Positions 1 through 6,151 of a stretch of 32,007 nucleotides of DNA are shown in pieces; positions within the stretch are counted from its first letter, which is position 1; every line of letters begins with the position of its first letter. Location: assembly GCA_900474095.1 (NCBI GenBank), contig UCOA01000081.1, positions 1-32,007 of the forward strand, in the 5' to 3' direction. The DNA is from Hyphomicrobiales bacterium (GTDB taxonomy: Bacteria > Pseudomonadota > Alphaproteobacteria > Rhizobiales > Rhizobiaceae). Both the position numbers and the translations under genes were made by a program. Below the pieces are notes generated by a model. The model was not told where the DNA came from. It was given only the letters and a program-made list of their open reading frames with translations, and ran no database searches.

Positions 1-545
1 GCGGCCTGGTCCGTGGTGAGCGCGGCGACATTGTCCGTCGACAGTCCCGAGATAGCCTTCGCGCTGATCGCGGCGATTTCGGCGGTCGAGAAGGTTGCGA
101 TATCATCCGTCGAGAGAGCCGCGATATCGGCCGAATCCAAGGCGCCGATCTGTGCGGAGGTCAAAGCCTCCACCTGGGCGGATGTGAAAGCGCTGATCTG
201 TGCGGAAGTCAGAGCGCTGATTACCTTCGCGTTCAGGGCTGCGATCTGGTCGGTCGTGAGCGCTGCGACATTGTCGGTGGTCAGAGCCGCGAGTTGGGTC
301 GAGCCCAGCGCGCCTATCTGCGAGGTCGTCAATGAAGCGATCTGCGCCGAGGTCAGGGCCGTGACCTGGCTTGCCTTCAGCGCCGCGACCTGGCTCGTCG
401 TCAGGGCAACGGCCTGGTCAGTGGTGAGCGCTGCGATGCTGTCGGTGGACAGTCCCGGCAGAGCCTTTGCGCTAATTGCCGCGATTTCGGCGGTCGAGAA
501 CGTTGCGATATCTTCCGTGGTCAAAGCCGCGACCGCAGACGAGCT
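1..545. repeat. 408-bp higher-order direct repeat inside the octapeptide gene
   Basis: DNA from about 13 to 180 closely matches DNA from about 421 to 588, an offset of 408 bases = 136 residues = 17 octads. At protein level octads 14-20 correspond to octads 31-37: EDIATFST matches DDIATFST, AEIAAISA is identical, and KALPGLST matches KAISGLST. This indicates that the array grew at least once by duplicating a block of 17 octads, not only by single-unit slippage. Confidence 0.7.
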
Positions 546-905
546 CAAGGCGCCGACCTGCGAGGAGGTCAAGGCTTCGACCTGATCACTGGTCAGCCCT
601 GCGATCTGGGCGGAGTAGAGGGCTGCGACCTGCGCCGTGCCGAGGCTTCCGACAGTCGACGTGGCCAGCATCGCCAATTGGTCGAGGCTGAGGCCCTTGA
701 TCGCGGACGCCGATACGGCACTCACCTGCTCGGTCGTGAGGGTGGCGATATCCTCTGTCTGCAAAGCGGCGATCTGGGCCGAGGAAAGCACCTTGATCTG
801 CGTCGTGGTCAGTGCCGCGACGTCGCTTGTGGTCAGAGCAGTAATCGCTGCGGTGGATAGGGCCTTGATCTGGCTGACGGAAAGAGAAGCAATAATCGAG
901 GTCAT
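1..905 (-). CDS. Octapeptide-repeat protein, partial (C-terminus outside window)
   Basis: Reading the minus strand from the ATG at 905 gives 301 codons with no stop before the window edge. After Met-Thr the whole visible protein is tandem octapeptides: 37 complete units without one register slip. Units look like SQIKALST, AQIAALQT, DNVAALTT; consensus x-[QDN]-[IV]-x-A-L-[ST]-[ST], so hydrophobic residues fall at positions 3 and 6 and Ser/Thr at 7 and 8. There is no Cys, no aromatic core and no recognisable signal peptide at the N-terminus; secretion, if any, would need a C-terminal signal outside the window. A weak purine run (aaaagg) lies about 12 bases upstream. The long plus-strand frames here are shadows. 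Similar octad-rich proteins occur in rhizobia but I know no established function. It is transcribed away from the glycosyltransferase cluster at 1560-6151, which suggests it may be a substrate of those enzymes (inference). Confidence 0.85.
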   Translation of the reverse strand, partial: MTSIIASLSVSQIKALSTAAITALTTSDVAALTTTQIKVLSSAQIAALQTEDIATLTTEQVSAVSASAIKGLSLDQLAMLATSTVGSLGTAQVAALYSAQIAGLTSDQVEALTSSQVGALSSSAVAALTTEDIATFSTAEIAAISAKALPGLSTDSIAALTTDQAVALTTSQVAALKASQVTALTSAQIASLTTSQIGALGSTQLAALTTDNVAALTTDQIAALNAKVISALTSAQISAFTSAQVEALTSAQIGALDSADIAALSTDDIATFSTAEIAAISAKAISGLSTDNVAALTTDQA

Positions 906-1559
906 AGAAGCGCGCCTTTTATGTTGACCGATGGCAAATGTCATTCCCTGCCGCAGACCACGCCAAAAGACTTGCAATGGGTCTTCGCCGCAGCCTCAAG
1001 CGCCCTGCGCCTGTTGCCGGCACTATCATCTGGTTGGACGCCTCAATCGGCATCGACCATTCGAGCGCCTGTCGGTAGGAAATAATGTTACGAGGAACAT
1101 GGCTCGCAGGAGCCGGCGCGTTGAAGTGCTTCATGCACCAGAGCGTGTGACCGCCCTGACTCCTACGCCTGTCGACGTGAACGCCTCGCCATGGCAAGAC
1201 CGGTTCACGGAGATCTGCCGTCAACACATCCGCGATGTGCCGTCTTCAGCAGAAGTCTTGCATAAATGACTATCCGGGAGTGTTTAATATAGAGTTAACA
1301 AATGCTGTACGTGCGTTCTTAAATCCTCAAACATGTTCGACTTTAGAACGCCCAGAAGGCGAACAATCGGGAAATTTGACCGGTTGCGATCGACCTGTCT
1401 CGCAATGCCAGCCCGCGAGGGTCAGAAACATCGCGCTAATTTAGGAGCACCGGCACGATATCGCAAAACGACAAGCCCAAAGCAAGCTAGCGCCGATAAA
1501 GGAAGATAGCGCATTCGTGCATAGTCTCAACTCCGGCCGTCAGGCCTTCTGCTCGTGGG
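906..1559. other. Intergenic region between divergent octad gene and GT41 gene
   Basis: A 654-bp stretch between two divergently transcribed genes, so it should hold promoters for both. The part from about 1265 to 1335 is clearly richer in A+T than its surroundings (runs such as tttaatatagagttaacaaa), as expected for a promoter region. The short overlapping frames on both strands lack good ribosome sites and resemble no family I know. No convincing sigma-70 pair could be fixed by eye. Confidence 0.5.
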
Positions 1560-4904: not shown

Positions 4905-4993
4905 ATCAATCCACGGCTCTCCCAGAGCGGGAGAGCATAACGGCCGCAGCTTGCAAATCTGCATGGCGAAACACGAGATAGGACCGGTTTGGA

Positions 4994-6151
4994 ATGCTCG
5001 GGAACGGAAAAATTGCTGTGGTTGGGGCCGGACTTTCGGGTGCGGTCATCGGGCGTGAACTCGCACAGGCAGGCTATCAAATCGAGGTCTTCGACGCCCG
5101 CAACCATATCGCCGGCAACTGCCATACAGAGCGCGACACGGAGACCGGGGTCATGGTCCATGTCTACGGGCCGCACATTTTCCATACAGATGACACCGAA
5201 GTCTGGGAGTATGTGAACCGCTTCCAGACCTTCATGCCTTATAAAAATCGCGTCAAGACGACGAGCAACGATCAAGTTTATTCCCTGCCCGTCAATCTAC
5301 ATACGATCAATCAGTTCTTCAGCAAGAATTTCCGACCAGAAGAGGCACGCGCCTTCATAGACGAGCAGGCCGACAAAACGATAGACGATCCCAAGACATT
5401 TGAAGAGCAAGCTCTCCGCTTTGTCGGACGAGACCTGTATGAAGCATTTTTCCAAGGATATACCCAGAAGCAATGGGGCTGTTCACCGACGGAATTGCCA
5501 GCCTCCATCCTGAAACGGCTTCCGGTGCGCTTCAATTACGACGACAACTATTTCTTCCACAAATACCAGGGAATGCCTGAAAACGGTTATACCGACATGA
5601 TCGGACGTGTTCTTGATCATGAGAACATCACGGTAAATCTGGAAACACAATTTCACCGCAGCCAGAATAGAGACTTCAGCCACGTCTTTTATTCGGGCCC
5701 GCTTGATGGCTATTTCGACTACGAAATCGGCCAGTTGGGCTATCGCACGCTGGATTTCGAGCGCTTTACCTATGAAGGCGACTACCAGGGCTGCGCCGTC
5801 ATGAACTATGGCGATGTTTCGGTCCCCTACACGCGGATCACGGAGCACAAGCACTTCTCTCCCTGGGAAGAGCATGCCGGCTCTGTCTGCTATCGGGAGT
5901 TCTCACGCGCCTGCCGCCGGGAAGACATCCCCTATTATCCGGTTCGCCTGATCAAAGAGAAGGAGCAGCTTGCGGACTATGTCTCACGCGCCGAACGGGA
6001 AACCTCCATTACCTTTGTAGGACGGCTTGGAACCTACCGTTATCTCGATATGGATGTGACAATCCGCGAGGCTCTCGACACGGCACGATTCTATCTTTCC
6101 AAAAAGGCAGAGAGCGCTTCCATGCGTGCATTTTTGCATACACCGGTCTGA
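4994..6151 (+). CDS. glf: UDP-galactopyranose mutase
   Basis: 385 residues, normal length for the family. FAD-binding Rossmann motif GAGLSG at residues 11-16, followed by the family signature EVFDARNHIAGNCHT and the stretch HVYGPHIFHTDDTEVWEYVN that contributes substrate-site residues; NYDDNYFFHKYQGMPENGYT and the C-terminal GRLGTYRYLDMD are also typical. The enzyme interconverts UDP-galactopyranose and UDP-galactofuranose using reduced FAD, in the cytoplasm. A ribosome site (gatagga) lies 10 bases before ATG 4994. It follows the putative glycosyltransferase by 89 bases on the same strand and would provide the furanose donor for a glycan built by this cluster. Confidence 0.95.
   Translation: MLGNGKIAVVGAGLSGAVIGRELAQAGYQIEVFDARNHIAGNCHTERDTETGVMVHVYGPHIFHTDDTEVWEYVNRFQTFMPYKNRVKTTSNDQVYSLPVNLHTINQFFSKNFRPEEARAFIDEQADKTIDDPKTFEEQALRFVGRDLYEAFFQGYTQKQWGCSPTELPASILKRLPVRFNYDDNYFFHKYQGMPENGYTDMIGRVLDHENITVNLETQFHRSQNRDFSHVFYSGPLDGYFDYEIGQLGYRTLDFERFTYEGDYQGCAVMNYGDVSVPYTRITEHKHFSPWEEHAGSVCYREFSRACRREDIPYYPVRLIKEKEQLADYVSRAERETSITFVGRLGTYRYLDMDVTIREALDTARFYLSKKAESASMRAFLHTPV

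Follow-up and report, generated by a model that had tools for sequence, protein, structure and literature searches.

A conserved gene set beside giant octad-repeat proteins suggests an undescribed protein-glycosylation system in rhizobium-family bacteria

An octad-repeat gene and its divergent GT41 neighbour

The stretch that we analysed (the window) is the whole 32,007-nucleotide contig UCOA01000081.1 (C73) from the draft genome, in 279 contigs, of a Hyphomicrobiales bacterium. It opens with part of a gene for a protein made of eight-residue (octad) repeats of the ALTTAQ type, and divergent from this gene stand genes for a tetratricopeptide repeat (TPR) glycosyltransferase of family GT41, for a second glycosyltransferase and for UDP-galactopyranose mutase (glf) (Table 1). 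An earlier note on this DNA had recognised these four genes and had proposed that they form a system dedicated to glycosylating the octad protein; their identities were borne out by Pfam and NCBIfam matches.

The octads of the window belong to Pfam family PF20080 (ALTTAQ_rpt), which matches the 325-residue open frame at positions 3-977 with an E-value of 1.5e-69 and with 229.8 bits over 12 stretches, against a curated cut-off of 26.4 bits. The ATG chosen as the start of the gene fits the MTS or MTT beginning that is common among other octad proteins (85 of 106 distinct inferred N-termini), whose C-termini often carry a motif like VIAAYQAV and which, when complete and linked to a GT41 gene, are about 1,200 to 2,500 residues long. 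Octads were found on three contigs of the window genome: C73, the end of C157, and C155. The fragment on C157 is C-terminal and its orientation matches that of the window gene, of which it is thus probably the other end. In the two fragments assigned to this gene, 27-29% of octad residues are Ser or Thr, so that the Ser/Thr richness described in the earlier note holds, at about two such residues per octad rather than one.

The GT41 enzyme of the window matches PF13844 (E-value 1.3e-70, 238.6 bits against a cut-off of 25) behind N-terminal TPRs (TPR_8, 3e-8), and no other GT41 was found in its genome. Its best matches in named genomes, at 81% identity, are in Rhizobium giardinii and R. herbae, which would place the source of the window in the Rhizobiaceae. 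The likeness to HMW1C-type enzymes put forward earlier did not hold: a PDB profile search returned human OGT at 1e-94, XcOGT at 7e-89 and SPINDLY (SPY) at 7e-63, whereas chains of the HMW1C/NGT type gave 5e-7 to 4e-6 over a match confined to about residues 497-589, and the enzyme reached 29.5 bits of the 1000 set as the NCBIfam NGTferase equivalog cut-off. It is therefore an enzyme of the OGT/SPINDLY kind, with HMW1C/NGT as distant relatives only. Residues H274, K443 and H521 (window numbering) are invariant in 13 of 13 aligned GT41s and align, in the PDB search, with OGT H558, K842 and H920, which we take to be catalytic-type residues; judged by this alignment, the catalytic-type residues are intact. 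In a tree of 128 GT41s, a clade of 98 members stands apart from 30 others with a split support of 1.0, and identity to the window enzyme shows a gap between 61% within the clade and a maximum of 42% among the 30 other family GT41s. Around the GHTT motif, as aligned with OGT, the clade is distinguished by G519, S522 and T529, where the other GT41s have N (26/30), T (30/30) and W (29/30), respectively. These differences would fit a changed donor pocket.

Table 1. Features at the start of the window
Feature	Position	Strand	Remarks
Octad (ALTTAQ-repeat) gene, 5' part	1..905	-	Proposed acceptor protein; ATG at 905, gene runs off position 1 (contig start)
Intergenic region between the divergent octad and GT41 genes	906..1559		654 bp, from open reading frame coordinates
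TPR-GT41 glycosyltransferase, OGT/SPINDLY type	1560..3611	+	Proposed cytoplasmic O-glycosyltransferase for octad proteins; PF13844
Accessory (middle) glycosyltransferase	3651..4904	+	GT-A fold with inserted galectin-like domain; some loci only
UDP-galactopyranose mutase (glf)	4994..6151	+	PF03275, TIGR00031; supplies UDP-galactofuranose
Serine carboxypeptidase S10 match	6413-7924		Next gene after glf

Linkage of GT41 with octad genes and with glf

A failure of octad genes to co-occur with the trio of GT41, second glycosyltransferase and glf had been named beforehand as one way to refute the proposal. The outcome did not refute it: co-occurrence of octads with GT41 was found at the level of both loci and genomes. 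Among 151 genomes of the rhizobium family, 23 hold PF20080 and 38 a GT41 of any kind, and 13, that of the window included, have a GT41 gene beside an octad gene. A scan of named genomes with an alignment of these 13 sequences gave 148 relatives, of which the best 80 were examined and the other 68 were not seen. An octad gene lies at most 2.3 kb from the GT41 gene in 74 of these 80 loci, arranged in four ways (upstream on the same strand in 40, upstream and divergent in 19, downstream and convergent in 9, downstream on the same strand in 6), and gene orders this varied speak against the simple descent of a single arrangement. All six remaining genomes hold octads; in L163, L164 and L168 these are on the GT41 contig at a distance of 14-18 kb, and L122 is a contig of 5.7 kb. 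In a sample of 394 family genomes, in which members of the GT41 clade were called at an E-value of at most 1e-150 (61-100% identity), the clade was present in 43 and octads in 80, about a fifth of the sample. Octads occur in 43 of 43 genomes with the clade and in 37 of 351 without it (Fisher p=1.4e-35, computed over related genomes that are not independent; the two surveys also share some genomes).

The glf of the window matches PF03275 (5e-79) and lies just above the TIGR00031 cut-off (304.1 against 303.75 bits). A glf gene is near GT41 in all 13 family loci that pair GT41 with octads, at 65-84% identity (window aside). When glf was called at the genome level (E-value of at most 1e-30), it was present in 43 of 43 GT41 genomes, compared with 4 of 20 genomes that have octads but not this GT41 and 3 of 17 that lack octads (43/43 versus 7/37 comparison genomes, p=1.2e-15). 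The 17 are a non-random set, 13 of them taken from close to the top of the listing and 4 from the window's genus. The glf gene shares a contig with GT41, at a distance of about 6 kb or less, in 39 of the 43, and in four (G204, G304, G328 and G375) it lies elsewhere. In 35 of the 80 named loci it is the next gene after GT41 and has the same strand; in eight of these the two genes may overlap at its start.

The middle gene encodes an enzyme with a GT-A fold and a galectin-like insert at about residues 57-200 (Pfam Methyltransf_FA), for which Mnn9 and B4GALNT1 score somewhat above GlfT2. It is present in 4 of 13 family loci and 22 of 80 named loci, and seven of the 151 family genomes hold it, four at full length. 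Thus, of the trio of GT41, second glycosyltransferase and glf that the earlier note had proposed, the GT41-octad pair and glf stand, and the middle gene is an optional part of the system. With the middle gene limited to 22 of the 80 loci, the furanose supply has its most constant glycosyltransferase partner in GT41. Judged by the glycosyltransferases at these loci, UDP-galactofuranose (UDP-Galf) is the leading candidate donor. Relatives of the GT-A/galectin-like enzyme also occur outside the rhizobia, in Commensalibacter, at about 44% identity. For the S10 carboxypeptidase gene that comes after glf, no relative was called in the other 12 family GT41 loci.

Octad fold and the fourth octad position

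An AlphaFold2 model of the first 301 residues of the window octad protein (mean predicted local distance difference test 95.6, predicted template-modelling score 0.85) is a confident array of helices 5-6 residues long, with roughly one helix to each octad. Within the octad pattern A-L-T-T-x-Q-I-A, the model keeps position 3 outside the helix throughout, as a cap, and position 4, helical in 95% of octads, begins each predicted mini-helix. The repeats also have a higher order: many of the repeat matches listed lie 408 bases (17 octads), or a multiple of that distance, apart, as in G245:C4:1295964-1300973.

We compared Ser/Thr frequencies at each octad position in 86 octad proteins encoded by 59 genomes, using a register search that took no information from positions 3-5. 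On the GT41 side, 39 of the 43 genomes were fetched, of which 38 entered the comparison after filtering by length and pattern (G187 dropped out at this step); on the other side, 21 of the 37 GT41-negative octad genomes were used, the other 16 being excluded with only 1-6 ALTTAQ matches each. Position 4 holds Ser/Thr at a mean of 0.755 in the genomes with GT41 and 0.410 in those without (p=1.9e-9), whereas no difference is seen at position 3 (0.760 versus 0.784, p=0.13) or position 5 (0.215 versus 0.199, p=0.56). The difference persists between genus means (p=4.7e-5, 14 versus 10 genera), and the two genera that include both kinds of genome show the same direction (0.84 versus 0.36 and 0.69 versus 0.51). 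Paralogs not linked to GT41 mostly follow it as well, with a mean of 0.70 in GT41 genomes (n=16) and 0.41 in the others (n=25; p=1.1e-5). One such paralog is found in the window genome itself, on C155 (L012:8845-13740): it is complete, with 1,631 residues, its position 4 is high in Ser/Thr (0.75) and no glycosyltransferase was recognised beside its gene. In eight of the 16 excluded genomes, the densest octad stretches have 0 to 0.23 at position 4 in seven cases and 0.55 in one, with position 3 at 0.38-0.73, below the rest; being low at position 4, these genomes indicate that their exclusion did not create the difference. The octad proteins of the named loci (80 proteins, 72 loci) average 0.83 at position 4, the lowest at 0.61, under a search pattern that favoured Ser, Thr or Pro there.

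The earlier note had suggested an adhesin or surface-layer role for the octad protein. Octad proteins have no evident signal peptide (judged by eye rather than with a predictor), and no exporter gene was found repeatedly near octad genes in the loci examined, so that this role is without support here. Three divergent giant ALTTAQ-bearing proteins (L097:7896-14789, L111:6620-9058 and L112:4150-14613) lie beside type III secretion genes, namely genes for an ATPase and a YscJ/FliF family protein in L097 and for a secretin and FHIPEP in L112, the assignment of L111 resting on its relation to L097. SH3 domains are present in the giants of L097 and L111, and DUF4781 also in that of L097. This is a hint that some octad proteins could be exported by type III secretion; position 4 of these three giants holds Ser/Thr in only 0-11% of the densest octads. 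Among 14 control genomes, Caulobacter vibrioides was the sole match to PF20080 and one of two matching PF13844, which indicates that a model organism may hold both parts.

Readings of the gene set and known relatives

Gene content, linkage, co-occurrence and the position-specific Ser/Thr difference were observed directly, and they support well, at the level of genome sequences, the idea of a dedicated octad glycosylation system with its own furanose supply. We consider it likely that octad solenoids are glycosylated in the cytoplasm at position 4, with galactofuranose (Galf) as the most probable donor sugar. The TPR domain of GT41 would recognise the octad solenoid, and the enzyme would place a hexose on the Ser/Thr that begins each mini-helix; Ser/Thr at position 3 would serve as the helix cap rather than as the main target. 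UDP-Galf made by the glf product would be the most likely donor, directly or for a part of the glycan, which the GT-A/galectin-like enzyme, where present, would probably extend or vary. Many octad paralogs that are not linked to GT41 are probably modified by it as well, in trans. The parts of this model differ in strength, the donor being less certain than the acceptor and its site, to which the genomic evidence points. The octad protein is very probably the acceptor, and Galf is probably part of the glycan; for direct transfer of Galf by GT41 itself, we put the chances at about even. Slightly below even, and hence tentative, is the fullest version, in which the whole clade would be furanose-donor GT41s that move Galf from UDP-Galf onto mini-helix-start Ser/Thr, at up to one sugar per eight residues.

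Several observations weigh against this model. L118 and L119 have no octad gene within 10 kb on full flanks (their octads lie elsewhere in the genome), and 37 of 80 octad genomes lack the GT41 clade; since octad proteins exist without the enzyme, modification is not needed for their fold. For glf, 24 of the 80 named loci have none in the fetched flanks and one more has only a 47% relative, while the sole glf of G204 (39% identical) and of G375 (47%) is not beside GT41 and is of a kind that some comparison genomes also hold. The position-4 effect is correlational, its groups overlap (0.60-0.96 versus 0.22-0.66) and the genomes are related; slight differences also occur at positions 1 and 7 (p=0.0008 and 0.009). 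GT41-negative loci are more GC-rich (0.67 versus 0.623), and a higher GC content favours Ala and Pro, yet it should shift positions 3 and 5 also. Retention of Ser/Thr between species carries little further weight when base frequency is taken into account. Finally, three unlinked paralogs of one genus (L246, L247 and L261, in G273, G352 and G219) have only 0.46-0.48 at position 4 despite GT41 in their genomes, which argues against action in trans on all octads.

Other roles for the same genes have to be weighed against these results. GT41 might be a flagellin glycosyltransferase of the FlmG kind, with the octad gene a neighbour that has another role: an excerpt of PMC7591256 describes Caulobacter FlmG as a soluble TPR glycosyltransferase needed for flagellin modification, and three of the 13 family clusters (L081, L088 and L089) sit amid flagellin, flagellar or chemotaxis genes (named by eye), one among flagellin genes and two between chemotaxis genes and a fliF-like gene. 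Flagellar/chemotaxis probes match 10 of the 80 named loci, mostly in Shinella, but the other 70 gave no match to any of the 18 probe proteins (some flanks end at contig ends), octads adjoin 74, and a flagellin enzyme would not predict the signature at octad position 4, so that we regard this role as very improbable. Somewhat less improbable, though still doubtful, is linkage without modification, in which the octad protein would bind or scaffold the enzymes and its Ser/Thr would be structural. Position-3 Ser/Thr is indeed common with and without GT41 and stands at the helix cap, and octad proteins persist where the enzyme is absent; left unexplained are why position 4, and not 3 or 5, tracks the enzyme, and why most unlinked paralogs follow.

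A more serious alternative, which we still hold to be unlikely, keeps the octads as acceptors and changes the sugar: GT41 would add a pyranose (GlcNAc, glucose or fucose), and glf would serve the accessory glycosyltransferase or a polysaccharide. Against it, glf is present in every one of the 43 GT41 genomes while the GT-A enzyme is found at barely more than a quarter of the named loci, and the clade differs from the 30 other GT41s at G519, S522 and T529. Octad glycosylation with Galf as the leading donor is the reading that we retain.

Altogether, the conserved gene set suggests a protein-glycosylation system for which, as for ALTTAQ solenoids, we found no paper in the literature searched. 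If the model is correct, the OGT/SPINDLY superfamily gains a new acceptor family, the ALTTAQ solenoids, and probably also a new class of donor, and there is a first functional handle on the giant octad proteins. Since the system is compact, with three genes and a predicted acceptor position, the rules by which TPR glycosyltransferases choose their substrates become directly testable.

Compared with known systems, the accessory enzyme is unlike GlfT2 in its extra galectin-like insert, and GlfT2 gave no sequence match to it in the PDB search. HMW1C/NGT enzymes glycosylate a large repetitive protein in the cytoplasm, as is proposed here for the octads. In the excerpted description of that system, however, the sugar is Asn-linked and the substrate an exported adhesin. 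The sequence match of these enzymes to the window GT41 is weak. With OGT, XcOGT and SPINDLY, the enzyme shares the order of TPR and GT41 domains, the catalytic-type residues and the strongest PDB profile matches (1e-94 to 7e-63); unlike them, it belongs to a distinct clade that is associated with a single repeat-protein family and with glf. FlmG of Caulobacter, as described in the same excerpt (PMC7591256), is alike in being a soluble cytoplasmic enzyme with TPR and GT-B parts that modifies Ser/Thr of an exported protein with the help of a dedicated sugar pathway. Its acceptor is flagellin and its donor pseudaminic acid, whereas here the sugar-pathway gene is glf and only 10 of 80 loci match flagellar/chemotaxis probes.
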